DNA from: Albidovulum sediminicola | GTDB taxonomy: Bacteria > Pseudomonadota > Alphaproteobacteria > Rhodobacterales > Rhodobacteraceae | DNA length: 64,000 nucleotides | NCBI RefSeq assembly: GCF_025751575.1 | Contig: NZ_JAOWLA010000008.1 | Coordinates: forward strand, 62,001-126,000 | Reading direction: 5' to 3' | In this document: in pieces, positions 9,924 to 29,039 of the stretch | How positions within the stretch are numbered: the first letter of the stretch is position 1 | Layout: every line of letters starts with the position of its first letter | Notes under the pieces: generated by a model | What the model was told of the DNA's origin: nothing | The model's database searches: none | Seen by the model: only the letters and a program-made list of their open reading frames with translations | Made by a program: the position numbers and the translations under genes

Positions 9924-11665
<1,742 letters not shown>

Positions 11666-11784: not shown

Positions 11785-12250
11785 ATGCCCGGGTCGCTCG
11801 ACCCAAAGGCCGTGCCGTCCGAAAGCCTTTGCGCGCCCGGGTCGGCGGCCGACGACCACCTTGCCACCAGTGCCGATCTGGCCGTGCGCTGGGCGCGATC
11901 CGCTTGCCGCCCGGCGATGCGGTTCCGCGCCGCGATGGAGCGGCTTATCGACGAACTGGCCAACGACATCCATGCGCTGTCCAACTCCGAGGCTTACCAG
12001 GAGTTGGCAGAGACGGCGCAGGAAGCGCGCGACAAGGTGATCGCCCAGACGGAGGAAGAGCTGTCGGAGGTGCTCAAGTCTGCCCCACGCGCGAGAAGGG
12101 CCACCGCCACGAGGTCGAGGGACCGAACCACGCGATGGCGACCACCGGACTCAACGCCGCGATCGGTGAGGTGCGGAAGGCGTTTTCGGCTGTGTCCGCG
12201 GTGCAGCGGCATCTGGACGCGGTCCCGACGCGTTTTATCCGGAGGGCAGC
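11785..12250 (+). pseudogene. Unidentified decayed gene
   Basis: The frame from ATG 11785 gives a plausible acidic helical segment (AMERLIDELANDIHALSNSE, then AETAQEARDKVIAQTEEELS), then turns into Arg-rich noise near 12090. Sense resumes in another frame (NAMATTGLNAAIGEVRKAFS-like, with HLDAVPTRF) to about 12240. This looks like a frameshifted helical or coiled-coil protein. I do not recognise the family. The FNR box at 11720 may once have driven it. The next stretch, 12251-12760, has no convincing coding frame. Confidence 0.4.
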
Positions 12251-12759
12251 GTGAACCGGCGCGCCGAGGACCAGTTGCGCGCCTTCGCCAAGTCCTCGCG
12301 CGGTGGGGTGGTGGATGAGAGAGCCCACCCCTTGCCATCCCCCCCTTGTGTGATCCTGAGCGCCACTTGCCATGCCGGCGCGGAGGCCGCGATGCGGCGA
12401 TCCGTCTTGTTGGCGCGGGAGGTGGCGCGAGCCGCGAAGGGCCTCTGGTCCGCAACAGGGGCGTCCTTTGGACGGTGCAGCGGCCAAGGGCACGGGTCGT
12501 CTCCTTCTCGGGCAGCAGTGTCCGGCGGGCGACGGATGCCACGATGCGCCCGGCCTTTCGCCCTGATGCGCGGCTGGTCGAAAGCGCGCTTTCCCGCCTG
12601 GCGCGGCAGCGGGCGGCTGGTTCCGGCTCTGGCGGGGCTGGCGGCGGTCGGCGGCCTTGTCGTGGTCGGCGTGAGACGCGATCCGCGACTGGCTTTCGCG
12701 CAATGCCCCTGCGGCAGAGTTGCGGCCCTGCCCCGGCAAGATGGAACGTCTGGCAGAGA

Positions 12760-12955
12760 TTAACCGGATCAGCCCCGCGGTGCGGGCGCGGAGGCGGTGT
12801 CGGAGAACGACGCTGTCAGCCGCCGGATCGCCCCCCACAGCATGCCGCGCCGCAGGCTCGACCCTGCCCTTCACGGCCGCCGGGTCGAGGTCGTCAGCGT
12901 CGCGCCCCTGCTGGCCGATGGCTCGCTCAGCGAGCTTATCCGCCCTCCAGGCTAA
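12760..12955 (+). pseudogene. Remnant resembling the C-terminus of a ribose-phosphate pyrophosphokinase
   Basis: One frame ends in LHGRRVEVVSVAPLLADGSL...IRPPG and a TAA at 12953-12955. This resembles the C-terminal VEVVSVAPLLAEAIRR segment of phosphoribosyl-pyrophosphate synthetases. No N-terminal PRPP-binding domain is readable upstream, so at best it is a truncated remnant. The identification rests on a short motif. Confidence 0.3.
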
Positions 12956-13973
12956 GGGCCGCCTCTTCGGCAAGGGCTAGGTAGCGCGCGGCCTGCGGCA
13001 CCCATTTTTCCGGCGTCCTCGGCGTAGGGTCAAGGAGGTGCGCAAGCGCCTGACGGGTGCGCAATGTCGCCCGGAACACGGTATAGAAAGCGATGAGCCG
13101 GGGCGGTGGCACCGGCCCCAGAACCATAGCGGCACGCTCGAACAGCACCTCTTGCACACCCCGCGCGCCGAGCGCCGCGCATTCCATCGCGAGCGTTGCG
13201 TATTCCTCGTAGGGATCAAGGGCGCGATGATCGGCCGAGCCTTCGAGGCAGTCGATGATCAGGACCGGCGGGCCCAGCCAGACATGTTCGGGCCGAAGAT
13301 CGCCATGGCCGTCGACGACATGCCCATCGTCCAGCCGCGACAGGATCAGCCCGATGTCGTCGGCCAGGAACTGGTCGAGCAACTCGGCAAGGCGGTCCAG
13401 GTGAGGGGCAAACTCCTGGAACGGCGGTTCGTTCAGCAGATGACGCAATTCCTGGATCTCATGCCGATAGCGACCAAGATAGCGGAAATGGCCGATGGGT
13501 GGCCGCGCCGCCCCGGCGTGAAACCTCGTCAGGCGGTCCGCCGCCGCAGCGATCTCGCCCGGCGTGGCATCCCCCGACCGGATCGCCTGGTCCAGGAAGC
13601 GCGCGGCCTCAAGCCTTCGCATGTGAACCAGCCATTCCGCCGTCGCCCCGTCGCCGTCGATGGCGAAGCTGCCGCCCTGCAATCGCGTCAGTCGCGACAG
13701 CCCCAGATAGACATCGGGGGCAAGACGCCGGTTCAGCCGCAGTTCCTCGTTGCAGGCATCGCGGCGAGCGCGCAGCGACCGGCAGTCGCTGAGCGCGCTT
13801 CGGACCGGCTTCTTCGCCTTGAAGACGGCGTCACGGGTCAGAAAGACCCAAGCCATGTTGGTCTCTCTCACCTCCTCAGCCGGCGTGCCGCGGTCGCGCA
13901 GGGCGGCGGCGATCTTGGCCACCTTTGAGGGGGCCGAAGGGACAGGACCGGGGGGCACCGAGGAGGGCTTCAT
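12936..13973 (-). CDS. Aminoglycoside phosphotransferase-like kinase (COG2187 type)
   Basis: A 345-residue protein from ATG 13973; the frame is open to an ATG at 14105, but residues upstream look non-coding. NMAWVFLTRDAVFKAKKPVR gives the ATP-binding lysine region. HVVDGHGDLRPEHVWLGPP is the kinase catalytic loop (HGD....H) and PVLIIDCLEG supplies the metal-binding Asp of the I/VDxxE motif. This family sits in stress and microaerobic clusters and has no established substrate. Antibiotic resistance should not be inferred. Its 3' end overlaps the decayed stretch by 20 bp. Confidence 0.75.
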   Translation of the reverse strand: MKPSSVPPGPVPSAPSKVAKIAAALRDRGTPAEEVRETNMAWVFLTRDAVFKAKKPVRSALSDCRSLRARRDACNEELRLNRRLAPDVYLGLSRLTRLQGGSFAIDGDGATAEWLVHMRRLEAARFLDQAIRSGDATPGEIAAAADRLTRFHAGAARPPIGHFRYLGRYRHEIQELRHLLNEPPFQEFAPHLDRLAELLDQFLADDIGLILSRLDDGHVVDGHGDLRPEHVWLGPPVLIIDCLEGSADHRALDPYEEYATLAMECAALGARGVQEVLFERAAMVLGPVPPPRLIAFYTVFRATLRTRQALAHLLDPTPRTPEKWVPQAARYLALAEEAALSLEGG

Positions 13974-14184
13974 GCGCGCAGAATTCACGGTCGCGTGACC
14001 TTGCGCACTGACGCCGATCATCTCGCCCGCCGAATTATGTGCGTGAAGCCGCCGCCCCGGCCGACGTAGAACATCACTGAAGTCGCGCAAAGGATTGGAG
14101 GTCATAGTTCATACCGTTCAACTGACGCACGAGTGGTTCAACCACCTTCAAAGGCGCGTCGCGCAGGCCGCCCCCTGACCGGGA

Positions 14185-14865
14185 TCAGCCGCCCTCCGCC
14201 AATACCCTCATCCCGTCGGGGTCGAGGATCACCACGGTCTGCGCCCCATCCAGCGCAAGCAGCCCGCTTTCGCGCAACTGCGTGATCGTGCGGCTGACCG
14301 TTTCAGGGGTAAGGCCCAGATGGTCGGCGATGTCCGCGCGGTTCATCGCGAGGTGTACGCGCCGATGCCGTCCCGCGCGCGCTCCGACGCGGCTGCCAAG
14401 CCAGAGGAGGAAGGCCGCGACCTTTTCGCACGCGGACCGCCGGCCAAGCGTGAGGAAATGGTCCTGAAGCGCGTGGATCTCCTCCAGCGCCGCGTTCAAG
14501 ACACGCGCATTCAGGTCGGGCCAGCGCTCCGGCGGTGAAAGCGGATCGAAGCGGTGCGCGATAACTTCGCAGGGCTCCACCGCATCGCATTCGGCCGAAT
14601 GCCTGCCATCGACCGGAAGGCCGACCAGATCCCCCGGCAGACCGAAGGTCATGACCTGTCGGCGCCCGTCCCGCTGGACCCGCGCCAGGCGAAGCGTCCC
14701 GGAGATGACCTCGAAAACATGCTTAGCCGTGTCGCCCTCGTAGAACAGATGCTCCCCCTGCCGCAGGTGGCGCCGGCATCCCTCGGGGGCTTCCCGGGCG
14801 CGTTCGCGTTTCAGGACGGGGCAGGATTGGAACGACAGGACATTGCAGGCAGTGTTCGCAAACAT
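14185..14865 (-). CDS. Crp/Fnr-family transcriptional regulator
   Basis: A 226-residue regulator: cyclic-nucleotide-binding-like beta barrel (LRQGEHLFYEGDTAKHVFEV...GRRQVMTFGLPGDLVG), dimer helix, and C-terminal helix-turn-helix RADIADHLGLTPETVSRTIT. The recognition helix has the E--SR pattern that reads TTGAT half-sites, matching the boxes at 11720 and 18646. Cysteines at ~7, 15 and 30 plus 93 and 99 could hold an oxygen-sensing Fe-S cluster, but spacing differs from E. coli FNR (20, 23, 29, 122), so it may instead be FixK-like. It probably controls the adjacent low-oxygen genes. Confidence 0.87.
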   Translation of the reverse strand: MFANTACNVLSFQSCPVLKRERAREAPEGCRRHLRQGEHLFYEGDTAKHVFEVISGTLRLARVQRDGRRQVMTFGLPGDLVGLPVDGRHSAECDAVEPCEVIAHRFDPLSPPERWPDLNARVLNAALEEIHALQDHFLTLGRRSACEKVAAFLLWLGSRVGARAGRHRRVHLAMNRADIADHLGLTPETVSRTITQLRESGLLALDGAQTVVILDPDGMRVLAEGG

Positions 14866-15031
14866 GATGGCCCCCTAGCGGTATGCGCGGTATATTGGTT
14901 GCGACATGTCGCAGAAGTATCTTTGGCCCTGTATCAAAGTGTAATTGCCGCGCTTGCCGCTTGCCGTTTCCTTTCGGGAAAACAATATGTCCCAGAACAA
15001 TTAGACATGTGGTTCCGGATGAGGAGGGGTC

Positions 15032-15760
15032 GTGGTCGGGAAGTCCATCCTGGTCGTCGAAGACGATCCTGGCGTGCGTCAGCTCCTGCGCCGGAGTCTT
15101 GAGGCCGACGGCTTCGCCGTGAGCGAGGCCGAGACGGGCGAGGCAGCCATCGAGATGGTGCAAAGGCAGTCGTTCGACCTGATCACGCTCGACCTGAACC
15201 TTACGGGCGCCGACGGCCTGGACGTCGCACGGCGTGTCGGCAAGATATCCAACGTCCCGATTGTGATGGTGACGGGCCGCGGCGACGTCATCGACCGGAT
15301 CGTCGGGCTGGAACTGGGCGCGGACGACTACATCACCAAGCCCTTCCACCCGCGCGAGGTGCTGGCGCGCATCCATTCGATCCTGCGCCGCTCCGGGGTC
15401 GAGGGGGCGGGCAAGCCCGCGACCCCCCTGGCCGGACCGCCGCGCGAATACGCCTTCGCAGGGTTCCGGGCAATCCCTGAAACGCTGGAACTTTTCGACG
15501 CCGAGGGCGCGCCCATCGAACTGACCGCTGGCGATTTCCGCCTGCTCACGGTCTTTCTCGACCACCCCAGGGAGGTGCTGTCGCGCGAAAGGATCATGAA
15601 CCTGGTGAACGGCTTCGAATGGGCGCCCCTCGACCGGACGATCGACAATCAGGTCGCGCGCCTTCGCAAGAAGATCGAGGCGGTGCCCAGCGCCCCCAAG
15701 CTGATCAAGACGGTGCGCGGCGTGGGTTACACCTTTGCGACCGAGGTCTTCGTGTCGTAG
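15032..15760 (+). CDS. OmpR/PhoB-family response regulator
   Basis: A 242-residue regulator from GTG 15032, preceded by GGAGGGG. The receiver domain has acidic pocket VVEDDP, phospho-acceptor Asp54 (ITLDLNL), switch Thr (VMVTGRG) and Lys in GADDYITKPFHP. The C-terminal winged helix (ELTAGDFRLLTVFLDHPREV...IDNQVARLRKKIE...VRGVGYTF) is the OmpR DNA-binding domain. It ends 3 bp from the convergent hybrid kinase, suggesting a pair despite opposite strands. Confidence 0.92.
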   Translation: MVGKSILVVEDDPGVRQLLRRSLEADGFAVSEAETGEAAIEMVQRQSFDLITLDLNLTGADGLDVARRVGKISNVPIVMVTGRGDVIDRIVGLELGADDYITKPFHPREVLARIHSILRRSGVEGAGKPATPLAGPPREYAFAGFRAIPETLELFDAEGAPIELTAGDFRLLTVFLDHPREVLSRERIMNLVNGFEWAPLDRTIDNQVARLRKKIEAVPSAPKLIKTVRGVGYTFATEVFVS

Positions 15761-15763
15761 CCG

Positions 15764-17320
15764 CTAGGCCCGGCTGTCGGGCAAAAGGGCCTTCAGTCGC
15801 GCGGCAAGCTCGACCTGGCGGTAGGGCTTCTGCAAAAGCTGCAATGTCTCGTCGCTTTTCCCGGGCGGCATCATTTTCCCGGGCGGCATCAGCAGATCAC
15901 CGGAAAACCCCGAAGTCATGAGGATCCCGACCCCCGGCCGTTCGGCCCTGATCCTTTGCGCGAGATCGAAGCCGTTCAGCGGCCCCGGCATGATGAAGTC
16001 GGAGAATACGGCGGCAACCTCCGGATGCTGTTCCAGAACGTCCAGGGCTTCGGCCGCGCTCGCGGCGGCAAGCGTCCGGTAGCCCAGGGCCTCGATCCGC
16101 TTGTTTGTCAGCGTGCGGATGGCGCGATCGTCCTCGACAACAAGGATGACGCTGCCGTTTCCGGCCCCGGTCTGGCTCTCGCAGGCGGGCTCGGTCCCGC
16201 GCGCGGGCGGGTCCGCGACCGGCACCGGGAAATAGAGGCTGACGGTCGTGCCCAGACCGACCTCGCTGTAAAGGGTTACCTTGCCCCCGGCCTGCCGGGC
16301 AAAGCCCTGGACCGTGGCGAGGCCGAGGCCGGTGCCCCGCCCCGGCGCCTTGGTGGTGAAGAACGGCTCGAAGGCGCGGGCCTTGACCTCGTCGCTCATC
16401 CCCTTGCCGTTGTCGGTGACGGAGATCCGCACATAGCGCCCCGGCAGCAGCCCGACCTCGGCAAAGCCGAAATCGTCAATGCGGACATCGGCGGTGCTGA
16501 TCACGATCTCGCCCCCGTCGGGCATCGCGTCCTGCGCGTTGACGACGAGGTTGATCAGCGCATTCTCGAACGCGGAAGGGTCGATGTCGATCTGGTCGAT
16601 CGTCGAGCGGTAGACGTAGCGCACCGAGGTCTTGGGCGACAGGATACGATTGAGAAGCCTGAGCGATTCCGAGATCGCCTGATTGACCCTGAGGCGGACC
16701 GGGCTGACGGGCCCGTTGCGGCCATGGGCCAGCAGCTTGCCGATCAGCTTGGTCCCGAGCTCCGCCGCCGACATCGCCTCATCCAGAAGGGCGTGCTGCT
16801 TGGGGTCGGTGATGCAGTTGCCCAGAAGCTCCAGGTTGCCGATGACGATGGTCAGGATGTTGTTGAAATCATGCGCCACGCCCCCGGTCAGCTGGCCGAG
16901 CAGTTCCATGCGCTTGGCCGCCTCCATCGCGCGCTGGCTGGCATTGCGCGCCGACAGATCGCGCATGATCCCGACGAAGACCGGCGCCCCGTCGAGGTCG
17001 CACCGGCCGATATTCAGATGCACGGGGCAGATGCTGCCATCCTTGCGAAGCGCGTCGAGATCGCGGCCGTGGCCCATGATCCCCGCCTCACCGGTCCTGA
17101 GGTAGTCCCCGATCCGGCGCCGATGCGCGTCCGCGGCGACGTCAGGCACCAGCAGGTCTATCGACTGACCCAGAAGCTCCTCGGGTTCATACCCGAACAT
17201 CGCGCTGGCGGCCGGATTGATGCGGGTGACAAGCCCATCGGCATCGCAAACGACGATGGCATCCACAGCCGTCGCGAGGATGGTGTCGAGCAAGACGACG
17301 CTTGATGCCTCACACGACAT
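15764..17320 (-). CDS. Soluble hybrid histidine kinase (PAS-HisKA-HATPase-REC)
   Basis: A 518-residue protein with no membrane segment. Domains: PAS sensor (residues ~10-125; [20 protein letters not shown]...[11 protein letters not shown]), HisKA with phospho-His150 in [13 protein letters not shown], HATPase with N-box [10 protein letters not shown] and G-box [14 protein letters not shown], and a C-terminal receiver ([11 protein letters not shown]...FSDFIMPG). The architecture is FixL-like, but no heme-binding PAS residues are evident. Cytoplasmic location and neighbours suggest an internal redox or energy signal; the convergent response regulator is the likely partner. Confidence 0.9.
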
Positions 17321-17402
17321 CGGCCGGAATCTCCCAGGTTGGACGCGCCGGCAGCCTCGCCCGTTGCGACGACGGCGTCAACCGCCCGCAAACAGACGGC
17401 TT

Positions 17403-18587
17403 TCAGGCTCGCAGGTATCCAACCGGCTCCGCCAGTCCGGGCGCGCCCGTCTGGTCAAGCTCCTGCTGCATGGCGATATGTGAGGTCAGATCCGCGAGCG
17501 TCACGACGCCCAAGAGCCGCCCCTGCTCGGCGACCATGTACTTGCGCGGGCCGCCGGTGATCATGCGCCTCATCACGGTGCCCATCTCCAGGTCCGGGGG
17601 GATGGTGTTCGTCTCGTCGCTGCTGACATAGATGTCGGCGACATGGGTATCGTCCCAGTTTTCCCGGTCGATCGCGCTGATCAGTCTGGCATCGACATAG
17701 CCCAGAAGCTGCTCGCCTTCGGTCACCGGCACGAAGCTGCGCGAGTGGCGCAGGATGATCCGGTCTATCGCCTCGGCGAGCGTGTCCTCCGGCTTTGCGG
17801 TGTGGAGCGAGCCGCTCATGAACTGCGCCACCGTTCCGCCCGTCACCTGGGGCGCTTCCACCAAGGGTCGCTTCGGCAGCCTCGGCGCCTGCGGCGCGGC
17901 CAGGAACAACAGGATACCGATCAGCACCTGCCAACCGCCCACGATCATGGCCCCCGAAAACAGTGAGACGAAGCCCGATCCGACCAGAAGGAGGGCGACG
18001 AGCGCGGAGACCTGACCCGCCTCCCGCGTCGCGGCGGCCAGATCGTGCGAGGCGCGCCAGCGCGCGGCCCTCAGGATGCGACCGCCGTCCAGTGGATAGG
18101 CGGGCAGCAGGTTGAGCGATGCCAGCGCGAGGTTGATCAGCGCAAGGTATTCCAGCAGCGCCAGAACCGGCGGCGAGATGCCGGCCCGTGACAACGCCAC
18201 AAACGCCACCCAGGCGAGCGCGCCCAGCGCGAACGGCACCGCGAGGCCCGCGATCGCGATCCGGAGCTCCGAACCCGCGCTTTGCGGCGCCTCTTCGGGC
18301 ATGGCAACGCGATCGGGCGCCAGATCGTGCCGCAGGACGCGACCCTGCGAGACCCTCCGGCGAGCCAGGGCCTGGGCGACGTCGTGCAGAACGATGCTGC
18401 CGAAAAGCCCCGCCGTCGCGACGATCGCGAGCAGAACGTGATCGCCCTTGCCAAGATCGGGAAGGCGTCCAGGAAAGAAGCCAGACAACAGCGACCAGAC
18501 CATCAGCGCGGCGACAAGAATCCAGGCAGGGTCGAGCCTGATCTCGGCGCCGAAAAGATCGATGGACCAAACCGCACGCGCAAACAT
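17403..18587 (-). CDS. Site-2-protease-like membrane protein with CBS domains, degenerate zinc motif
   Basis: A 394-residue protein with about six membrane segments followed by two CBS domains (residues ~255-385; TVAQFMSGSLHTAKPEDTLA, then YVDARLISAIDREN). The fold is peptidase M50: LNLLPAYPLDGGRILRA (Asp167-Gly-Gly) matches the second zinc-ligand motif. The first motif, normally HExxH, reads LHDVAQALARR (His68-Asp-Val-Ala-Gln), so the catalytic Glu and second zinc His are missing. The protein is probably a pseudo-protease or has altered metal binding. An FNR-like site lies ~65 bp upstream. Confidence 0.87.
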   Translation of the reverse strand: MFARAVWSIDLFGAEIRLDPAWILVAALMVWSLLSGFFPGRLPDLGKGDHVLLAIVATAGLFGSIVLHDVAQALARRRVSQGRVLRHDLAPDRVAMPEEAPQSAGSELRIAIAGLAVPFALGALAWVAFVALSRAGISPPVLALLEYLALINLALASLNLLPAYPLDGGRILRAARWRASHDLAAATREAGQVSALVALLLVGSGFVSLFSGAMIVGGWQVLIGILLFLAAPQAPRLPKRPLVEAPQVTGGTVAQFMSGSLHTAKPEDTLAEAIDRIILRHSRSFVPVTEGEQLLGYVDARLISAIDRENWDDTHVADIYVSSDETNTIPPDLEMGTVMRRMITGGPRKYMVAEQGRLLGVVTLADLTSHIAMQQELDQTGAPGLAEPVGYLRA

Positions 18588-18645
18588 CGCTTACCCTGCC
18601 ACATGCTTCTTGAAGGTAATTTTATCAACCTCCGATCCGGGCCAA

Positions 18646-18659
18646 TTGATCCCGATCAT
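18646..18659. promoter_or_regulatory. FNR-like box upstream of the M50/CBS gene
   Basis: TTGATCCCGATCAT matches TTGAT-N4-ATCAA in all but the last consensus base. Its centre is ~65 bp upstream of the M50/CBS start (18587), the same distance as the perfect box at 11720 from its gene. The rest of 18588-18919 is AT-richer promoter DNA without another recognised element. Confidence 0.6.
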
Positions 18660-18919
18660 GCGGCCGCCGTTTCCGGGCACCGACCTGCGAGGCAAAGGCG
18701 ATTCTCTCCGCTTTGCCGCCCCACAACCCACGGATTGCGCGGTCTTTTGGCCGTTCTCGATGCTGCGGCCCAATCTCTGGGCGGAATCGTTTAACAAAAC
18801 GCATATAATAGAACGTATTCTATTAGATTATTGCGATTTTCACATCTCGCTTGAAGATAGGGTATGCGATGCCGCATTTTTGCCGCATTGTATGGACGAC
18901 TCCAAGCGAGGAATCTGAC

Positions 18920-19501
18920 ATGACAAGTGTGTTGATCGAAACGGCCGATCGGCCGAGCACGCTGTACGCCCCCGAAGTCGTCGGCGTTTTCAAATCCTAC
19001 GAAGCACTGCAAGCCACCTACAGCGACCTGCGCGCGGTCGGTTTCAGCCGGTACGATGTCGACCTTCTGGGCCGCAAGGACGCGCTGGCAAAGACGCTCG
19101 GCAACCGGTTCTGGTGGTCGCGCGAAGTGGAAAACGATCCTACCGTGCCGGTTTCAGCCTTTGTGCCCGAAGCGGCGATGGAGGACTACAAGGCCTTCCT
19201 GAAGTACGGTTTCGCCTTCATGGGATCCTACATCGCCATGGCGATGCTGGTAACGCCCGCGAGCACCCTTGCCGCGTCGATCTCGGTGGTGTCGATCGAG
19301 GGCATCCCCGGCGACGTGATGGGGGCGATCCTGGCCCATCGCAGCGGCCAGCACCTCAAACCCTTCTACGAGGACAAGCTCCACAAGGGGGGGATTATGA
19401 TGTGCGTGCGCGCCACGACAGCCGAGAAGGAGCGGCGCGCGGTCGCGATCATGGCCGAGCGGTCCGGGCAGGACGTCAACATCCACCGCTGGATCGACTA
19501 A
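18920..19501 (+). CDS. Uncharacterised membrane-associated stress-type protein
   Basis: A 193-residue protein from ATG 18920, with AGCGAGGA about 7 nt upstream (an in-frame ATG at 18851 lacks a ribosome site). The N-terminal part (YAPEVVGVFKSYEALQATYS...DLRAVGFSRYDVDLLG) resembles a small alpha/beta domain seen in general stress proteins. Residues ~95-135 form a hydrophobic hairpin (FAFMGSYIAMAMLVTPASTLA) and the C-terminus repeats the domain style. No catalytic motif is seen. Its promoter region faces the FNR-like site, so it may belong to the same island. Function unknown. Confidence 0.7.
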   Translation: MTSVLIETADRPSTLYAPEVVGVFKSYEALQATYSDLRAVGFSRYDVDLLGRKDALAKTLGNRFWWSREVENDPTVPVSAFVPEAAMEDYKAFLKYGFAFMGSYIAMAMLVTPASTLAASISVVSIEGIPGDVMGAILAHRSGQHLKPFYEDKLHKGGIMMCVRATTAEKERRAVAIMAERSGQDVNIHRWID

Positions 19502-19590: not shown

Positions 19591-20158
19591 TTGATATCCG
19601 GGATCATGGCTCAAGGGCGCCGGTCGCGGCGCCCTGGCCACGGGTTCGGTGTCGAGGTCACCTTGGCTGACAACACGCGCCTTGGGCATAGCGTCGCGGC
19701 AGAGGGAACGGGCGCCGCTGTGCGTTTCGAACATGCGGCGCCCCGGATTGGCTCCCGGCTTCTCTTGCTGTCCGACGCCGCCATGACGCTGGAGGTTGCA
19801 AGCCTGCCCAGCCGCGAAGCCGCATGTGCTGGTCCTGAGCCTCTCCTCCGAGCTTCGGCTCGGAATGCCGGGCGCGATACCGGGCAACCCCTGACCGCCC
19901 CGACGGGCATGGCGCTGCTGGGGCAAATGCCGAACATCTTCGACGAGACCATCGACGGCAAGCCCCCACCGGTGTGCGCTTCCGCGCGTGCCGTGCAGAC
20001 GGCGCTGGCGGAATAGAAGGACCTCAACGACATCATCCCATGCCGGGGTTCGAGGAGCTGTCGGAAAAGGACGCGCCATCGTGCGGCGCGCGCTGGAACG
20101 GTTCCCGACGCAGCCCTTCTTCTCGACCGCAGGGATGACCGGGAAGCCAGGGCGATGA
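19591..20158 (+). pseudogene. atpD: Decayed atpD, N-ATPase beta subunit
   Basis: The 5' part reads RDTGQPLTAPTGMALLGQMP...DETIDGKPPP, matching the beta-subunit segment DTG-P--P-G---LGR--N--GEPIDG-PPP. It then jumps to SARAVQTALAE, a TAG stop at 20014-20016 (where Tyr is expected), KDLNDIIP, a frameshift, GFEELSEKDA and RALERFPTQPFF, the C-terminus of beta. The whole nucleotide-binding core (~270 residues, Walker A included) is deleted. The end (TGA 20156-20158) overlaps the next start, as in an intact operon. Confidence 0.85.
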
Positions 20159-20323
20159 CCTCGACACTCCATCTGGGCGCGATAGCCGGGGCGGCGCAGA
20201 GCCTTGGTCTGTTTCACCTCGCTCTGGCAGGCGGCCCAGGCGCTGCCGGCGCTGATCGCGGTGTCTGCCTTCTCGCTCTCGCGGCGCGGCCTTTGGGGCT
20301 AACTGCCCACTGATGTCCGGCCC
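20155..20323 (+). pseudogene. atpR: Decayed atpR-like membrane subunit remnant
   Basis: ATG 20155 overlaps the atpD end and gives MTSTLHLGAIAGAAQSLGLF, a start like the small N-ATPase membrane protein AtpR. After a frameshift the next frame reads LWQAAQALPALIAVSAFSLS, the expected second half. The epsilon (atpC) and atpQ genes that usually sit between atpD and atpR are absent. Assigned mainly from operon order. Confidence 0.5.
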
Positions 20324-20608
20324 TTGCCCGTGATGCTCCCCATCAACATCGTCTCCGAGATCTCCCGCGCCATCGCGCTGGCCGTCCGGCTGAACGGTCG
20401 TTTCATGAGCGGGACGGTCATCGCCGGCACCGACAGCAGCATCGCGCCCTTCTTCTTCCCCCTGATGATACAGGTTCTGGGACTGCGGACCGGCCTGATC
20501 CAGGCCTATATTTTTGCGGCCCTCGCGATGGGCTTCATCGCCTCCACCGTCCGTCCGGACAACGGACCCGCGCCCTCCCCCAAGCTCTCCAACGGAATGG
20601 AGCCCTGA
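20324..20608 (+). pseudogene. atpB: Decayed atpB, Fo subunit a, C-terminal third only
   Basis: Reads LPINIVSEISRAIALAVRLN, then FMSGTVIAG and PLMIQVLGLRTGLIQAYIFA. This is the conserved C-terminal half-channel of subunit a, including the essential arginine region (ISR.I.LAVRL.G..MSG). The N-terminal ~130 residues are missing, so it cannot make a working a subunit. It ends in TGA at 20606-20608. Confidence 0.85.
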
Positions 20609-20957
20609 AAAGGATGCCGCGGTCCGGTTCGCCATCGTCTCGATCATCACGGCCGGCCTGACGGTCGCGATCGGCGCGATCGCCTCGGCCACGGCAGAAG
20701 GGGCGTCGGCGCACGTCGAAAACTCGACCGATTTAACCCCGGCGGCACGCGACCGGATCGCGCGCGCGCTTCATGATCACATCGCCGAGGGGATCGACGT
20801 TGACTACCGCGCCGCAGAGGACGCGCCGGTCGGGATGTGGTTGACGCCGGGCCGCCCGGTCCTCGAATGGTCAGCGGCGCGCGACTTGGATCGGGTCGAG
20901 ACGCTGGTATCCGATAGCCTCGTCACCACGGCCAGCCAGGCGGTCGATGCCGCCTGA
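20609..20957 (+). pseudogene. Fused remnants of atpE (subunit c) and atpF (subunit b)
   Basis: The frame begins FAIVSIITAGLTVAIGAIAS, the first helix of an N-ATPase c subunit. The second helix with the ion-binding Glu is missing. It runs straight into LTPAARDRIARALHDHIAEG, VGMWLTPGRPVLEWSAARDL and VETLVSDSL, the C-terminal domain of the b subunit. A deletion has therefore joined two genes in frame. Stop TGA at 20955-20957. Confidence 0.75.
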
Positions 20958-21765
20958 ACGCTCCTCTCTGCCTGGCGACGTGTTCGCGGGACCTTTGGAC
21001 CGCATGACCCGCATCGTGGCGTAAACCCGGACCGAGGTGGAGCTTGGCAGCGTCGCCCGCGTGCTGAGCGTCGGAAACGGCAGCGCCCGGATCGCGGGCA
21101 TACCCGAGCTGCGGGCAGACGTGCTGGTGAGCTTCGAGCGGGCCGAGACCGGCATAGCGGCCAGCCTGGGCACCGACCGGTCGGGCGTCATCGTCCTTGG
21201 CTGCGGCGATGGGATACGCCACGGCGGCAAGGTTACCCGACTCCGGCGCGTGATCGGCACGCCGGTTGGTGGTGGGCTTCTGGGGCGGGTGATGGGCGCG
21301 CTTGGCCAGCCGCAGGGCGACCAGAGACGGGTCCGGAATGGTCACCCATCGAGCGGCCGCCGTCGCCCCGTTCCAAACCGGGATCGCGGCGGTCGATGGC
21401 GGCGGCGCCCTGACCGCGCACCCGGTGACGGAGACGCAAGCGCAGAACATCTCCGCCTTCATCCGGACCGAATTGATCTCGATCACTGACCATCGGATCT
21501 GTCTCGCGCCCGACCACTTCGAGAAGGGGCAGTTGCCCGCCCTGGACATCGGCAACTCGGTCAGCCGCGTCGGCGGCAAGGCGCAGCTTCCCGCCTTCCG
21601 CGCGCTCGCCGGGGACCTGCGGCCTTGCTGCGCCCAGGTCGAGGACTCGGAGACCTGCGCGCGGCTCGGCACCCAGATCGACACTGAGACCCGCCGAAAG
21701 CTTGGTCGCGGGCGGCGCGATCGACTCCGGGCCTGCCGCGATACGAGGAGCAAGCGAGGGCGGCG
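20957..21765 (+). pseudogene. atpA: Decayed atpA, N-ATPase alpha subunit
   Basis: After a stop in the leader, one frame reads VARVLSVGNGSARIAGIPEL...[14 protein letters not shown], the alpha beta-barrel. A frame change gives [20 protein letters not shown], then [20 protein letters not shown]...[19 protein letters not shown] and [19 protein letters not shown], the C-terminal half. The Walker A region between GIAAVD and GGALTA is deleted. At least one frameshift and one deletion make it non-functional. Confidence 0.87.
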
Positions 21766-22330
21766 ATGCAATCGCTTGAAGACGCGTCCGCGCATCTGCA
21801 GACGACGCGGGAAATCCACGCAATGGTGCGCGCGACAAGGGCACTGTCCGCGCCCCGGATCCATCAGGTTGTTGGCGCGGCGGAGGCCATCGGCGACTTC
21901 GAACACACGATCGAGATGGGGCTGCGGATCGTGCTACGCGGAAAGGGCGTCACGGCATGACCCCGGCCCGAGGGCGGCGGGTCCGGCCTGATCACGTTCG
22001 GCTCCGACCGGGTTCGCCTGCGACCGCCCGCGCACGGGGCGAAGCCGCGCCCCCCGCCATTGGGTCCGATCGCTCTTTTCCTGGCCGATCGGGCAACCAT
22101 CTTCACGCTTCTTTACAGACCTCCGGCAGAACCGCGTGCGAGTGAACATGCGGCGCGCCGAACGCAGTATCGGAGAACACCGTGACGCGCTGATGGATGC
22201 CTACCGCCTGTTGCGCCAGGGAGCGATTACCCGCGAACTGCGCGACATCCTTGCCGGGTTCGAGGCGGCCCGCCAAGGCCTTGATGCCGACGGCGCACCC
22301 TTGCCAGACGAACGGTCCCGCGCGATATAG
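21766..22330 (+). pseudogene. atpG: Decayed atpG, N-ATPase gamma subunit
   Basis: The 5' piece (21766-21960) begins [20 protein letters not shown] and ends [15 protein letters not shown], the N-terminal coiled-coil of gamma. The 3' piece (22136-22330) reads MRRAERSIGEHRDALMDAYR and ITRELRDILAGFEAARQGLD, the C-terminal helix. The sequence between keeps only scraps (ATIFTLLYRPPAE). A stop and frameshifts separate the two ends. Confidence 0.82.
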
Positions 22331-22334
22331 CGCC

Positions 22335-23336
22335 ATGGCGCCCGCACATCCCCAGGCTGAAATCTTCGACGTGATCTGCGTGGCCCAGGCCGGGCGTCTG
22401 GCCTATGAGGCGGTGATCTTCGCGGCCACGTTCCGCGCCGCCAATCCCGGTTTCGAGGGGCGCCTGGTGATGGCGGAACCTGAGCCCGGCCCTCTCTGGC
22501 AGGATGAGACGCGCCTTCCCGATGCGATCCGGGGCGTGCTTGACCGGCTGGGCGCAGAGATCGTGCCCTTCGAGAGCCGCCATTTCGGCCAGTCCTATCC
22601 CTATGGCAACAAGATCGAGGCGCTTTCGATCCTGCCGGGGGACCGCCCCTTCGTATTCTTCGATACGGACACCGCCTTCATGGCGCCCCTGTCCGATGTC
22701 GTCTTCGAATTCGATCGACCCGCCGCCTCAATGCGGCGCAAGGGCACCTGGCCGCAGATCGAACTTTACGGACCGGGCTACGGCCAGATCTGGAAGTCGC
22801 TCTACGACAAGTTCGGCCTCGACTTCGAAAGCTCTCTCGACCGGACGAAGCCGGATGAGCACTGGGAACGCTATCTCTATTTCAACGCGGGCTGGTTCTT
22901 TCACCGCGACGCGCGGGTCTTCGGCCAGCGGTTTCTCGACTACGCGCTGGCGATCCGCGACGATGCGCCCGACGCGCTTGTCTGCCAGTCGCTCGACCCC
23001 TGGCTGGACCAGGTGGCGCTTCCCCTCGTCATCCATTCACTGGGCGGCGGACGGCCGGGCCGGGGTCTCGACGGGCTCGATGGCAGCGTCAGCCGCCACT
23101 ATCGGGTGCTGCCGCTGCTTTACGCCAATCGCGACGACCGCGCGATTGCGGCGATCGAGGCAGCCCTGGCGCCGAACTGGATCAAGAAGGTCGTGAAGGA
23201 ACATGAACCGATCCGCAAGTTCATCTACCAGAGCAAGGGCGCCGAAGTCCGCGCCATGTTCGAGGGCGAAGCGCTGCCGCCGCAGGAACAGGCAGTCCGC
23301 AACCGGCTGAAGAAGGCGAAGCTTTGGCTGCGCTGA
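22335..23336 (+). CDS. Glycosyltransferase-like protein (DxD motif)
   Basis: A 333-residue protein from ATG 22335, 5 bp after the gamma remnant. VICVAQAGRLAYEAVIFAAT starts a Rossmann-like GT-A fold; PFVFFDTDTAFMAPL carries the metal/nucleotide-sugar DxD (Asp110-Thr-Asp112); YLYFNAGWFFHRD follows, typical of nucleotide-diphospho-sugar transferases. No signal peptide or membrane segment is seen. The sugar and acceptor are unknown. Unlike the upstream remnant, it is intact with normal codon use. Confidence 0.75.
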   Translation: MAPAHPQAEIFDVICVAQAGRLAYEAVIFAATFRAANPGFEGRLVMAEPEPGPLWQDETRLPDAIRGVLDRLGAEIVPFESRHFGQSYPYGNKIEALSILPGDRPFVFFDTDTAFMAPLSDVVFEFDRPAASMRRKGTWPQIELYGPGYGQIWKSLYDKFGLDFESSLDRTKPDEHWERYLYFNAGWFFHRDARVFGQRFLDYALAIRDDAPDALVCQSLDPWLDQVALPLVIHSLGGGRPGRGLDGLDGSVSRHYRVLPLLYANRDDRAIAAIEAALAPNWIKKVVKEHEPIRKFIYQSKGAEVRAMFEGEALPPQEQAVRNRLKKAKLWLR

Positions 23337-23404
23337 GCCTCAATCCCTTGAAAAAGCTGCGCACGAAACACAGGTGCTGGCCAAGAAGCCCGGGAACCGA
23401 GACC

Positions 23405-24787
23405 ATGAAATCCATGCTGATCCTGCCGCTCTGCGCGCTCGCCGCCCTGTCCCAGCCCGCGTTTGCCGAGACCCGTCTGCCCGCCTCCCAGGCCGAAATC
23501 AGCCTGAGCTTCGCGCCGCTGGTCAAGGCGACGGCCCCTGCGGTCGTCAACATCTACGCCCGCAGGATCGTCGAGCAGCGCCAGAGCCCCTTCGCCAACG
23601 ACCCGTTCTTTTCGCAGTTCTTCGGCTTCGGACAGGCCGCGCCAAGGGTCCAGAACTCCCTTGGCTCGGGCGTGATCCTGCGCGCGGACGGGATCGTGGT
23701 CTCGAACTACCATGTCGTCGGCGGCGCCGACACGATCCGCGTAGTCTTGTCGGACCGGCGCGAATTCGACGGGCGGGTGATCCTGTCCGATCCCGGCGCC
23801 GATATCGCCGTGATCCAGCTTGAAGACGCCTCCGGCCTGCCGGCGCTGGACCTGGCCGACTCCGACCGGGCGGAGGTCGGCGATCTTGTCCTGGCCATCG
23901 GCAACCCCTTTGGCGTCGGCCAGACCGTGACCTCGGGGATCGTGTCGGGCCTTGCCCGCTCCGGCGGGGGCATGGGCCAGGGGGGCGGTTATTTCATCCA
24001 GACCGATGCGCCGATCAACCCCGGCAACTCCGGCGGGGCGCTGATCGACATGACGGGGCGGGTCCTCGGGATCAACAGCCAGATCGTCACCCGATCGGGC
24101 GGATCGAACGGCATCGGCTTCGCGATTCCGGCGAACCTTGTCCGGCAGTATGTCAGCCAGGCCGAAGCCGGCCGCACCGAGATCGAGCGCCCCTGGTCGG
24201 GGATCGAGGTCCAGGTCGTGGATGCCGCCATGGCAGAGGCCATGGGCATGCCCGCGCCGCGCGGCGTCGTGATCACGCGCCTGCATCCAGAAAGCCCCTT
24301 CGCACATTCGGGACTGCAAACCGGCGATGTCATCACCTCGGTCGGCGGCCTTGATGTCGATGGACCGCAGGAGCTTGAGTTCCGCCTGACCACGATGGGA
24401 ACCGGCGGCACCGCGCCGGTCGCCTACTGGCGCGACGGGCGCATGGAGGAAGCCGATGTCACCCTCTCGCCCGCGCCGGTCTCCGATGCGCAAAGCCTTC
24501 GCATCACGGCGAACACGATCTTCGACGGGCTTTCGGCCGCGATCCTGAGCCCCGCTCTGATCCAGAAATACGGGCTGCCATTGTCCGCCGAGGGGATCAT
24601 CGTGACCGGCGTTGGTGGCGCCGCGCGGGGAACGCGGCTGCAAAGCGGCGATGTGATCCTTGCGATCAACGGGGTGGAGATCCGCTCGCTCCGCGACCTC
24701 GAAGCGGTTGCGAGCCAGCCAAGCCGGCGGTGGCAGATCACCTTCGTTCGCGATGGGCAGCGCCTGGTCCTCAGGCTGCGCGGATAA
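23405..24787 (+). CDS. Periplasmic HtrA/Deg serine protease
   Basis: A 460-residue DegP/DegQ-type protease with a cleavable signal peptide (MKSMLILPLCALAALSQPAFA). The trypsin-like domain has catalytic His103 (VSNYHVVGGA), Asp133 (SDPGADIAVIQ) and Ser209 (NPGNSGGALID). Two PDZ domains follow (PESPFAHSGLQTGDVITSVG, then GTRLQSGDVILAINGVEIRS). It degrades or refolds damaged envelope proteins. It is monocistronic, 68 bp after the glycosyltransferase gene. Confidence 0.93.
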   Translation: MKSMLILPLCALAALSQPAFAETRLPASQAEISLSFAPLVKATAPAVVNIYARRIVEQRQSPFANDPFFSQFFGFGQAAPRVQNSLGSGVILRADGIVVSNYHVVGGADTIRVVLSDRREFDGRVILSDPGADIAVIQLEDASGLPALDLADSDRAEVGDLVLAIGNPFGVGQTVTSGIVSGLARSGGGMGQGGGYFIQTDAPINPGNSGGALIDMTGRVLGINSQIVTRSGGSNGIGFAIPANLVRQYVSQAEAGRTEIERPWSGIEVQVVDAAMAEAMGMPAPRGVVITRLHPESPFAHSGLQTGDVITSVGGLDVDGPQELEFRLTTMGTGGTAPVAYWRDGRMEEADVTLSPAPVSDAQSLRITANTIFDGLSAAILSPALIQKYGLPLSAEGIIVTGVGGAARGTRLQSGDVILAINGVEIRSLRDLEAVASQPSRRWQITFVRDGQRLVLRLRG

Positions 24788-24873
24788 CCGCCGCCCAGAC
24801 CCCTCCCGCGCATGTGATTTCCGTGTGAACGGTGAATGGCCGCACAATAGCCCCACCCGGAAAGGAGGCCATC

Positions 24874-25014
24874 ATGACCTTTGCCGCCATCCTTGCTGCC
24901 CTGACGCTGTTTTCCGTCGCGCTTGTCTGCGTGGCTAGGGCGCAATCCCCGTCCGAGTCGCGCAGCGCGACCCAACACGCAGACCACCGCGGTCCAAAAG
25001 GCTGCAACTGCTAA
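24874..25014 (+). CDS. Small secreted peptide, 46 residues
   Basis: A very strong ribosome site (AAAGGAGG, 6 nt before ATG 24874) precedes a 46-codon frame. Residues 1-23 are a signal peptide or anchor (MTFAAILAALTLFSVALVC...ARA). The short remainder is polar and ends HRGPKGCNC, with two cysteines and two histidines that could bind metal. No family is recognised. It lies between htrA-like and metY. Confidence 0.6.
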   Translation: MTFAAILAALTLFSVALVCVARAQSPSESRSATQHADHRGPKGCNC

Positions 25015-25106
25015 GCACGCTGTGAAACGCGCGCCCAGCGCACCTGTTGTCTTGGGGGGGCGCTTGCCCTAACCTCGGCGCCGCATCATTTCCCGCGGAG
25101 ACCCCG

Positions 25107-26393
25107 ATGACCAAGACCTACGGCTTTGACACGCTTCAGATCCACGCCGGCGCCCGGCCCGATCCCGCCACGGGCGCGCGTCAGGTTCCGATCTACCAGA
25201 CCACGGCCTTCGTCTTTCGCGACGCGGATCACGCGGCGGCCCTCTTCAACCTGCAAGAGGTCGGCTACATCTATTCGCGCCTGACCAACCCCACGGTCGC
25301 GGCCCTGGGCGAGCGCATCGCCACGCTCGAAGGCGGCGTCGGCGCGGTCTGCTGCTCTTCGGGCCACGCGGCGCAGATCATGGCGCTCTTCCCGCTGATG
25401 GGGCCGGGGCGCAACATCATCGCCTCCACCCGGCTTTACGGCGGGACGGTCACCCAGTTCAGCCAGTCCATCAAGCGCTTCGGCTGGTCGGCGAAGTTCG
25501 TCGATTTCGACGACCTGGACGCGCTGGCCGCGGCCATCGACGATGACACCCGCGCGATCTTCTGCGAGTCGATCGCCAACCCGGGCGGCTATGTGACCGA
25601 CATCCGCGCCGTCGCCGATGTGGCCGACAAGGCCGGGCTGCCGCTGATCGTCGACAACACCTCCGCCACGCCCTACCTTTGCCGCCCGATCGACCTCGGC
25701 GCGACGCTGGTCGTGCATTCGACCACCAAGTATCTGACCGGCAACGGCACCGTGACCGGCGGCGCGATCGTGGATTCGGGCAACTTCAACTGGTCGGCCT
25801 CGGACAAGTTCCCCTCGCTTTCCGCGCCCGAGCCCGCCTATCACGGGCTGAAGTTCCATGAGACCTTCGGGCCGCTGGCCTTCACCTTCCACTCGATCGC
25901 GGTCGGCCTGCGCGACCTGGGCATGACCATGAACCCGCAGGGCGCGCATTACACGCTTCTGGGGATCGAGACGCTGTCGCTCAGGATGCAGCGCCATGTC
26001 GAGAACGCCCGCAAGGTCGCCGAATGGTTGGAGAACGATCCGCGCGTGGACTATGTGACCTACGCCGGCCTGCCCTCCTCGCCCTATTACGAGCGGGCCC
26101 AGAGGGTCTACCCCAAGGGCGCGGGCGCGCTTTTCACCTTCGCGGTGAAGGGCGGCTACGAGGCCTGCGTGAAGCTCGTCGACTCGCTGGAGCTTTTCAG
26201 CCACGTCGCGAACCTGGGCGACACCCGCTCGCTCATCATCCACTCCGCCTCGACGACGCACCGCCAGCTGTCGCCCGAGCAGCAGAAGGCCGCCGGGGCC
26301 GCGCCCAATGTCGTGCGCCTTTCGATCGGGATCGAGGATGCCAACGACATCATCGCCGACCTCGATCAGGCGCTTGCGAAGGCAACGGCCTGA
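25107..26393 (+). CDS. metY: O-acetylhomoserine aminocarboxypropyltransferase (sulfhydrylase)
   Basis: A 428-residue Cys/Met-metabolism PLP enzyme from ATG 25107. The start YGFDTLQIHAGARPDPATGA and YSRLTNPTVAALGERIATLE are hallmark segments. The PLP lysine lies in VVHSTTKYLTGNGTVTGG. Inserts and length match the MetY group rather than MetZ/MetB. It forms homocysteine from O-acetylhomoserine and sulfide. A strong hairpin follows the gene. The 90-bp leader shows no SAM riboswitch I could recognise. Confidence 0.93.
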   Translation: MTKTYGFDTLQIHAGARPDPATGARQVPIYQTTAFVFRDADHAAALFNLQEVGYIYSRLTNPTVAALGERIATLEGGVGAVCCSSGHAAQIMALFPLMGPGRNIIASTRLYGGTVTQFSQSIKRFGWSAKFVDFDDLDALAAAIDDDTRAIFCESIANPGGYVTDIRAVADVADKAGLPLIVDNTSATPYLCRPIDLGATLVVHSTTKYLTGNGTVTGGAIVDSGNFNWSASDKFPSLSAPEPAYHGLKFHETFGPLAFTFHSIAVGLRDLGMTMNPQGAHYTLLGIETLSLRMQRHVENARKVAEWLENDPRVDYVTYAGLPSSPYYERAQRVYPKGAGALFTFAVKGGYEACVKLVDSLELFSHVANLGDTRSLIIHSASTTHRQLSPEQQKAAGAAPNVVRLSIGIEDANDIIADLDQALAKATA

Positions 26394-26413
26394 TCGGGTA
26401 GCCGCACAACTAG

Positions 26414-26438
26414 AAGGGGGGGCGGGACGCCCCCTCTT
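26414..26438 (+). terminator. Hairpin downstream of metY
   Basis: AAGGGGGGGCG pairs with CGCCCCCTCTT across a 3-nt loop, 20 bp after the metY stop. The stem is 11 bp with one G-T pair. It marks the end of the ordered genes before the insertion-sequence graveyard. No long T-run follows. Confidence 0.6.
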
Positions 26439-26565
26439 GCCAGCCCGCTCTTACCAAATGCGTTGAGGGTCGCGATCGATTGGAAGGTGCGATCATCCCC
26501 AAGACGTATGAGCTTCTGCCGGTTCCATGGGCACGAAGATAAGATCGTGACCATGGAGTTGGAGA

Positions 26566-27110
26566 GTGGAAATGGCGCGACGGATGTTCAGCCGCGAGTT
26601 CGAGATCGAGGCGGCGAAGCTGGTGACGGAGCGGGGCGTTTGGGTGGCCCAGGCGCGCCGGGATCTGGACCTGACAGAGAGTGTGCTGCGGCGCCGGACC
26701 AAGGAATTGACGGCGGCGCCTGCTGCGGCCTTTCCCGGTAACGGGCAGATGGGATCGGACCTGGCCGAGATTGCAGCGCTGTAGAAAGAGGCCGTCCGGT
26801 TCCGGGCGGAGCGGGGCATCCTCAAGAAAGCGGCGACCTTGTTCGCGCGGGGAGGCGACATGACGTTCGCCTTCATCGCAAAGCACGGCGATATCTGGAC
26901 CGTGAACGGGCTTTGTGAGGTCATGGAGGCCTCACGTTCCGGCTTTCATGCTTGGTTCCATCGTCCGGCCCGCGCTCGCGCGATCCTTGGTACAAAGCTC
27001 ATCACCGTGATTGACAGGAGCTTCAAGGCAAGCGACCGCACCTATGGGATGCTGACCCTGAGCGTGGTGTAGCTTCTGGCGGAGGGGGGCACAGGCGGCG
27101 TTCGGTTGGG
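26566..27110 (+). pseudogene. IS3-family transposase, 5' part (orfA and start of orfB)
   Basis: orfA reads MARRMFSREFEIEAAKLVTE and ends at a premature TAG (26782-26784). Codons continue as an orfA tail (FRAERGILKKAATLFARGG), and orfB begins MTFAFIAKHGDIWTVNGLCE with SGFHAWFHRPARAR, typical of IS3. It breaks off at about 27072-27110 (SFKASDRTYG, stop) where the IS256 remnant begins. Its 3' end is probably the fragment at 28745-29039. Confidence 0.78.
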
Positions 27111-27141
27111 GCCTGGTTTCTGACACCAATCTGGACCACCG

Positions 27142-28238
27142 ATGACCACCGACATAATGAACTCCCGCCACCGCGTCGGGAGGCCCCCTGAGGCGGACTT
27201 TTGGGCGAGATGATTGGCTTTGCCGCCGAGCGGCTGATGGAATTGGGGGTCGGCGCTGCAACGGGTGCGGTCTGTGGCGAGAAGGACCCGGCACGGCTCG
27301 CGCAGCGCAACGGCTATCGCGACCGGGATTAGGTTACGCGCGCCGGGACGGTCGAGCTGCGCATTCCGAAGCTCAGGAAGGGCAGCTACTTCCCGGGCTT
27401 TCTCGAACCCCGGCGGATGGCCGAGAAGGCGCTGACCGCGGTCATCCAGGAGGCTTATGTTCCGGGCATCTCGACGCGGCCCGTGGACGATCTCGTCAAG
27501 GCGATGGGGATGTCGGGGATCAGCAAGAGCCAGGTCAGCCGCCCGTGCGAAGAGATCGACGGCAAGGTGAAGGCCCTCCTCAACGGGCCTCTCGAAGGCG
27601 ATTGGTCCTACCTCTGGATCGACGCGACTTACCTCAAGGTCCGGCGCGGCCTTCGGGGCGTAAAGCCGGTGATCTCGGGCGCGCACCGGGGGGCATCAAA
27701 GCCTCCGTCTCGAAGGTACTCAGCGCCATCTGGCAATGCTGCCGCGTCCATTTCCAGAACAATGCCCTCGCCCGTGCCGGGAAGAGCGGGCGGCGCGTCG
27801 TCACGGCGCTCATCGCCACTGCCTTCGCGCAGGACACGGCCGAGGCCGCCAGCACCCAGGGGCGGCCCGTCGCCGACCAGATCCGGCCCAAGGTGCCGAA
27901 GCTCGCCACGCTGATGGACGACGCCAAGCACGATGTCCTCGCCTGCATGTCCTTCCCGAAGGAGCACCGAGCGAAGTTGCACAGCACCAACCCAATCGAG
28001 CGCCTGAACGGCGAAATCAGGCGCCGCACCGATGTCGTCGGCCCTCGGGCATCCCCTCGGACCAGTGGCAGGAATGCCCTCGATCCCAAACGACGACGCC
28101 ATCGTTCGCCTCATCGGAGCCCTGCTCCTGGAACAAAATGACGAATGGGCCGTCCAGCGCGCCCGCTACATGACGTTGGAAACCATCGCGCCCTTGGGCG
28201 ATGATGCCGTCATCAGCCTGCCCGCCGTGGCATCCTGA
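27142..28238 (+). pseudogene. IS256-family transposase remnant
   Basis: Reads MIGFAAERLMELGVGAATGA, RNGYRDRD, a TAG at 27330-27332 where Trp is usual, then [20 protein letters not shown] and [19 protein letters not shown]. The catalytic region DATYLKVR then joins [13 protein letters not shown] with ~40 residues missing. A frameshift follows and the C-terminus continues as [15 protein letters not shown]-type sequence ([20 protein letters not shown]) and [15 protein letters not shown]. One stop, at least two frameshifts and a deletion: inactive. It sits inside the split IS3 copy. Confidence 0.85.
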
Positions 28239-28249
28239 TCAACCATGCC

Positions 28250-28744
28250 CGCGCCGAACACAACAGTGACCGTCAGCGCCAGCTACACCATCCAAGGGAC
28301 AGCATCATGCTGGACCGCCGCGAAGGAAGGCAGATAGTGGGGAGCCGAGAGTACCTAACCTGTCTTCCGTGGACCGTTTTCCGTCCGATCGGAGGTCTTC
28401 GATGCCCAAGGTGCACACCGGCACGGAACGGCTGTTCGAGTGGGCCGAGAGGGACTTCGACACCCTGCGCCGCCCCAACGACGCGGTCGTGACGATCGTG
28501 CAGGGGGGCTTGACGCTTGACCCTGTCCCCAAACCAGATCGAGGTCTTTTCCGCGGAGCAGGCGCTGGAGGCCTATTCATCCTCGGGCATGGCGCTGATG
28601 TACGGGCGCTGGACCCTCGGCAGGCATTTCGCCTTTCACGAGCGTCACTATAGCCGCGGGTTGCGCGGGTTGGCCTTTGCGATCGTCTTCAACCGGAATG
28701 CCGCCGCTGAAGTGGCCCACCAACCGGCGAAGATATACCCCTCG
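28250..28744 (+). other. Unidentified remnant between IS fragments
   Basis: Two short overlapping frames are protein-like: PKVHTGTERLFEWAERDFDT from 28402 and EVFSAEQALEAYSSSGMALM with GRWTLGRHFAFHERHYSRGL from 28517. Neither is complete and I recognise neither. They may be cargo or a host gene split by insertions. Confidence 0.25.
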
Positions 28745-29039
28745 AAGTGCAAGACCAGGAGATGGCTGTCTGGCGCCGCGGCAAGACCGACGCGCTGCTC
28801 CACCATTCGGACCAGGGATCGCTATATGCCAGTGCGTAGGTCCAACGCCTGCTGCTCGACAATGGCATTACCCGCTTGATGAGCCGGGCCGGCAATGCCT
28901 GGGACAATGCGGCAACGGAGAGCTTCTTCTCGTCGCTGCAGAACGGGCCCACGGCCCGCAAGCTCTACCGCACCCGTGACGCGGCACGCGCCGACGTGTT
29001 CGACGACATTGAGCGCTTCTTGAGCTGCCCCGAGTTTCC
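28745..29039 (+). pseudogene. IS3-family transposase, 3' part
   Basis: Reads MAVWRRGKTDALLHHSDQGS, a TAG, then VQRLLLDNGITRLMSRAGNA, WDNAATESFFSSLQ and TRDAARADVFDDIERF. This is the end of an IS3 orfB, with the DDE glutamate in the ATESFF block. It abuts the next IS copy at 29039 on the opposite strand. It matches the missing end of the 26566-27110 fragment. Confidence 0.75.

Follow-up and report, generated by a model that had tools for sequence, protein, structure and literature searches.

Between positions 19663 and 22279 on the plus strand of a 64,000-nucleotide stretch of Albidovulum sediminicola DNA (the window, bases 62001-126000 of contig NZ_JAOWLA010000008.1), pieces of an N-type F1Fo ATPase were found in the operon order beta, R, a, c, b, alpha and gamma. 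They are what is left of an entire second (N-type) rotary ATPase operon that is dead and has undergone heavy deletion. What is new is that a sister genome, G015, has a different broken N-ATPase remnant at the same syntenic place. The literature searched (titles and abstract openings) yielded no description of a decayed N-ATPase operon, and an excerpt of PMC4154653 mentions a single possible pseudogene, which groups with N-ATPase genes. The initial annotation had proposed that a complete N-ATPase operon was inherited and is now decaying, and family models, intact operons of congeners and the sister remnant all agree with this view.

Two intact congeneric operons were used as references, op37 (genome G002, locus L037) and op38 (genome G019, locus L038). 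Eight frames from 19591-22330 were analyzed by hmmscan against Pfam (E<=1) and NCBIfam, all 64 kb were searched by tblastn with the subunits of the two operons (E<=1e-3), and a frameshift-aware alignment was performed. Together the three approaches confirmed the ordered fragments that had been proposed; the pieces end at about 22279 and not at 22330. The anatomy given here is that of the alignment, with residue numbers of op37 and approximate deletion ends; the evidence and, where applicable, the model positions are added in brackets.

19663..19968, plus strand: beta residues 7-109, with frameshifts near 19823 and 19870 (TIGR03305 2e-7, positions 1-108; tblastn; alignment)
19971..20155, plus strand: beta residues 367-426, with TAG in frame at 20014, preceded by a possible 5-residue scrap (223-227) that may be chance (tblastn; alignment)
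20155..20225, plus strand: R residues 1 to about 22 (alignment; none of 300 random stretches as high with either of two references)
20231..20605, plus strand: a residues 112-234, with TAA in frame at 20300 (TIGR03306 1e-24, positions 142-215; tblastn; alignment)
20613..20702, plus strand: c residues 2-31, helix 1 only (TIGR03322 3e-6; alignment)
20709..20954, plus strand: b residues ~190-269 (TIGR03321 2e-5, positions 168-244; tblastn; alignment)
20947..21397, plus strand: alpha residues ~20-142 and 164-183, with TAA in frame at 21022 (TIGR03324 7e-16, positions 26-125; tblastn; alignment)
21398..21718, plus strand: alpha residues 337-443 (TIGR03324 5e-43, positions 304-419; tblastn; alignment)
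21766..22011, plus strand: gamma residues 12-96, frameshifted near the end (TIGR03323 8e-8, positions 4-54; tblastn; alignment)
22073..22279, plus strand: gamma residues 229-303, beyond a 396-nt deletion (TIGR03323 7e-9, positions 244-284; tblastn; alignment)

N-ATPase operons have the gene order atpDCQRBEFAG, and the presence of R is typical of the family. The seven subunits that left a trace follow this order, i.e., beta-(epsilon-Q)-R-a-c-b-alpha-gamma, which is also given in an excerpt of PMC3543383. The alternate-type models of NCBIfam (TIGR03305, 03306, 03321-03324) matched every subunit piece except R, the best values being those of alpha (5e-43) and a (~1e-24). An N-type model ranked first for beta, the c-b frame (TIGR03322 on top, with TIGR03321 matching the b part), the C-terminal alpha piece (TIGR03324 5e-43 versus atpA 4e-29) and both gamma pieces. 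For the N-terminal alpha piece the general atpA model was slightly better (1e-17) than the N-type TIGR03324 (7e-16), and the a piece yielded a near tie (NF004481 5e-25, TIGR03306 1e-24). Hence, N-type models were the best or nearly the best for each piece but R, which places the operon in the N-ATPase family. The full-length NCBIfam cut-off was reached by none of the frames, as expected for fragments. In Pfam, ATP-synt_A and the N-terminal and nucleotide-binding domains of alpha/beta scored above the gathering score. The C-terminal domain of alpha/beta and gamma stayed below it, and four of the eight frames hit nothing or just a weak, unrelated family (E<=1). For one of the eight, the frame 20158-20310 in the R region, both Pfam and NCBIfam were negative.

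The tblastn matches were confined to 19660-22279 and were in operon order, with none elsewhere in the 64-kb window; R was without a match in the window at E<=1e-3. As a null, 300 random stretches of the same window were subjected to frameshift-aware scoring with op37 and op38. The R scores exceeded those of all 300 stretches (72 versus a maximum of 48, and 60 versus 51, for the two references), and so did the scores of a with both references and of c with one. Remnants of epsilon and Q were sought in the same way. Epsilon scored within the null, and so did Q except for op38 Q in a short stretch near 20176, which was equalled by 9 of the 300 random stretches. Thus, the impression that atpC and atpQ are gone was borne out. 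The ordered match of the pieces to N-ATPase subunits is not due to chance.

The fossil has the same subunits, order and strand as N-ATPase operons, but epsilon and Q are absent and the other subunits are truncated and carry stops and frameshifts. The beta scrap is bounded by gaps of 339 and 417 nt, and the Walker A region of beta is deleted. A deletion of 826 nt, which took the beta C terminus, epsilon and Q, joins the scrap to R, and the boundary between R and a is an ambiguous overlap at ~20225-20317. Residues 1-111, nearly half of a, are deleted. In c everything after residue 31 is absent, including helix 2, and a deletion of ~727 nt fuses the b scrap in frame to the c scrap. Alpha has lost its Walker A by a 459-nt deletion before residue 337, and its C terminus is also gone. 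In comparison to op37 the missing intervals comprise 339, 417, 826, 548, 727, 459 and 396 nt, together 3712 nt, which are seven deletions if the 5-residue beta scrap is counted and six without it. Further, shorter losses exist in alpha, including that of its C terminus. By arithmetic, about 6.6 kb was reduced to an estimated 2.6 kb. No large insertions were seen in the alignment with the intact operons. Beta, a and alpha have one in-frame stop each, which makes three in the 722 retained codons, and there are several frameshifts besides. No microhomology can be claimed for the deletion ends, because the references are too distant.

The Walker A motifs of alpha and beta, both helices of c and the whole a subunit are essential to the enzyme. 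The initial annotation had listed the Walker A regions, the second c helix and the first part of a as lost, and the alignment recovered exactly these losses. As judged from the sequence, no N-ATPase could be made from this copy, because no catalytic subunit with a Walker A and no whole membrane subunit are left. The label "Na+-type", which had also been applied, cannot be inferred from the fossil, because c no longer has its second helix, and an N-type c-ring from elsewhere, a c17 ring, is H+ specific according to the abstract of PMC5376962.

The codon positions were used to characterize the decay. On the fossil branch the divergences at positions 1/2/3 were 0.208/0.194/0.475, versus 0.063/0.025/0.324 for op37 and 0.039/0.038/0.185 for op38, showing that the fossil is under relaxed constraint. 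Accordingly, both hallmarks of bacterial pseudogenes, relaxed codon constraint and disabling lesions, are present. At sites that are equal in both references third positions had changed about twice as often (0.367) as first (0.182) and second positions (0.167). The scraps thus keep a codon structure, and therefore the decay is not very old, or it is not wholly neutral. About 0.15 of the 0.475 substitutions per site would have occurred after death, a rough arithmetic that assumes the intact second/third ratio of 0.124 before death and equal change at all positions after it. The relaxation was broadly alike in all pieces, with ratios of first/second to third position changes of 0.37-0.63. Alpha 337-443 is best kept, with 21% of the conserved residues changed versus 29-38% elsewhere, possibly owing to a stronger constraint while the operon was alive.

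It is extremely improbable that an intact operon was broken by sequencing or assembly errors. The genome is a draft of 70 contigs (4.13 Mb), and the frameshifts alone could be explained in this way, but gaps of 339-826 nt and a raised amino acid divergence are not base-call errors, the flanking genes are open, and the locus in G015 also holds a broken remnant. Only slightly less remote is the idea that some scraps are functional small proteins, e.g., the open c-b fusion frame or the C-terminal piece of subunit a. The c and b scraps are indeed fused in frame without a stop, and changes still favour third positions; against this stand the internal stop in a, the similar relaxation of all pieces, and the absence of every piece but gamma from the locus in G015.

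Elsewhere in the genome an F-type alpha (534-aa frame), gamma (296 aa) and a (377 aa) are present, and a 486-aa frame adjoining the F-type alpha and gamma is probably beta. Among 22 genomes of the genus, own genome included, the a-subunit model scored above its cut-off in two, namely G002 and G019, while the set in G013 is more distant. In 17 of the 22, several of which are incomplete drafts, neither an N-type a nor a gamma was found. The other five are G000 (this genome), G002, G013, G015 and G019. The intact N-ATPases of G019 and G002 are nearest to the fossil (64 and 62% identity over the retained residues, respectively), and where 600 or more residues were compared, no other N-ATPase exceeds 56%. 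Unlike the fossil, the operons of G002 and G019 are complete, and they are at other loci. The sole match to a gene of the window near them is a distant dehydrogenase E1 (32-34%), about 350 nt past gamma in G002. The metagenome-assembled genome G019 has three N-type a-subunit copies on separate contigs (L038, L039, L040), and thus it contains either several N-ATPase operons or mixed strains.

For a comparison of the syntenic locus with sister species, which had been suggested as a check, the flanking genes served as landmarks.

22335..23336, plus strand: right flank gene without a Pfam match, present in 20 of the 22 genus genomes (own included), used as locus anchor
17403..18587, minus strand: left flank M50 protease with CBS domains, syntenic in G015

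The closest relatives of the right flank gene are found in G015 (81%) and G021 (80%). Its surroundings in the 19 other genomes were searched with N-ATPase subunits (E<=1e-3). Two of these stretches, L079 (G007) and L087 (G019), are uninformative, as they break off immediately upstream of it, and a third, L073, covers no more than 3 kb. An N-ATPase match at the locus was obtained in G015 (L070) only. It is a nearly full-length gamma at about L070:5484-6396 on the minus strand, without any other subunit. This gamma is a pseudogene: it contains one TAG, and a start codon is missing where one would be expected. As in the window, it lies between the orthologue of the right flank gene and those of the M50 protease, histidine kinase, response regulator and FNR. 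It shares with the fossil the locus and the orientation relative to the conserved flank gene, but in G015 gamma is nearly whole and the other subunits are gone, whereas the fossil has scraps of seven subunits. In G021 neither the island nor a remnant was detected at the locus, and the whole genome had no M50 match. In the adjacent FNR island, which had been called otherwise intact, the genes of FNR, the response regulator, the histidine kinase and the M50 protease are uninterrupted and encode the domains that such proteins should have.

The left neighbours of the two remnants are unlike, an orphan gene here (18851-19501), with a weak match in one of the 21 other genus genomes, and an extra Crp/FNR-like gene in G015 (L070:6420-7169), which abuts the gamma pseudogene. 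The protein of the gene 25047-26393 is 98% identical to that of G015, and that of its neighbour at 23324 is 84% identical. Two long minus-strand frames at 12074-14105 have no Pfam match (E<=0.001) and no tblastn match in the otherwise largely syntenic G015 island.

For the tree, the retained residues of the fossil (719 without stops), 61 N-ATPase loci, four further loci and op37 were compared; 14 short, partial or duplicate loci were left out, yielding 53 rows for the concatenated and 52 for the gamma tree. In maximum-likelihood trees the fossil and the G015 gamma formed a clade, with UFBoot values of 97 (concatenated, G015 with gamma only) and 98 (gamma). In raw identity the fossil gamma is barely closer to G015 (59%) than to G002 (58%), so it is the model-based trees that carry the clade. 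In these the fossil has a long branch, with 0.58 in the concatenated tree versus 0.11-0.16 for G002, G019 and G015, and 1.53 in the gamma tree. Some long-branch attraction is possible, yet locus and tree agree. Synteny and the gamma clade indicate that the operon was probably present in the common ancestor of A. sediminicola and G015.

Taken together, it is very probable that an ancestral accessory N-ATPase at this locus, dispensable beside the F-type enzyme, decayed to scraps here and to a gamma pseudogene in G015. Synteny and tree suggest that a complete N-type operon would have stood between the redox-regulator island and the right flank gene in the common ancestor. The extra enzyme may have lost its selective value, an F-type ATP synthase being present. 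In this lineage the operon died and shrank, mainly by internal deletions, to the ordered scraps seen today, and in G015 everything except the gamma pseudogene is missing from the locus.

Whether the one acquired operon died separately in the two sisters, by scattered internal deletions in one and near-total deletion in the other, is about an even bet, and a death that had already happened in their common ancestor seems rather unlikely. Both copies are broken today, and G015 has lost all subunits but gamma, hiding any earlier lesions elsewhere, which would fit an early death. The comparable gamma lesions are not shared, however: the fossil retains the ATG that was lost in G015, and the TAG of G015 is a sense codon here, so that separate decay may have occurred. 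In addition, the divergence between G000 and G015 at four-fold sites (JC 0.33-1.25) was more than twice the 0.15 estimated for the time after inactivation in 11 of 11 genes. Lesions and four-fold divergence favour separate death, without proving it, because G015 lacks the other subunits.

To put the fossil into a wider context, 394 genomes of 393 genera of the family were surveyed, with thresholds below which small remnants fall. TIGR03306 (E<=1e-23) gave 41 matches of at least 283 bits in 40 genomes and 36 more at 170-220 bits that possibly represent a different type; the matches of both groups are nearly full length and free of internal stops. The remaining matches listed, at ~85-101 bits, are at the level of the F-type a, and among the matches listed this fossil is the only partial, stop-bearing one. 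With TIGR03323 (E<=1e-32) 39 genomes yielded 40 matches, all of them free of stops. Small remnants are under-counted, because the gamma scraps of the fossil fall below the TIGR03323 threshold; the G015 gamma would pass it, yet is absent because G015 is outside the survey sample.

The flanks of the 61 N-ATPase loci (up to 8 kb, E<=1e-15) were compared with the genes around the fossil. A close tie of the island genes to N-ATPases was rejected, as the genes 14185-19501 and 22335-26393 have no homologue above 40% identity at the 61 loci; distant regulator/kinase matches (29-38%) lie beside three of them (L120, L132, L147). Further left, the block 6745-11665 encodes a 2-oxoacid dehydrogenase E2, a fused E1 and an AMP-binding ligase (Pfam). 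Homologues of its three genes (50-75%) are found at L133:10559-16315, about 1 kb beyond the gamma of an intact Roseitalea sp. N-ATPase. At L126 a ligase homologue (61%) is upstream of beta, and L099, L109 and L135 have an E1 dehydrogenase match of 30-34%. A metabolic or mobile link between the E2-E1-ligase block and N-ATPases is possible. Transposase remnants are located 4-8 kb right of the fossil (window 26400-30200), i.e., a Mutator-family piece at 27417-27914, which covers just profile positions 100-177, and an integrase-core frame at 29039-29587; 26839-27072 had no Pfam match.

N-ATPases have a patchy distribution, and Dibrova and colleagues are said to have described in 2010 that they are laterally transferred. 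Beyond mere presence or absence, the genome pair shows loss in progress, and it provides a spectrum of deletions across a bacterial operon of nine genes. Both remnants would escape surveys restricted to intact genes. The picture of the enzyme mechanism is unchanged by the fossil. Pseudogene operons are an already known kind, and the decay is well preserved here and a good example of it. If separate death were true, the two genomes would record two routes of the ongoing loss of a dispensable rotary ATPase.
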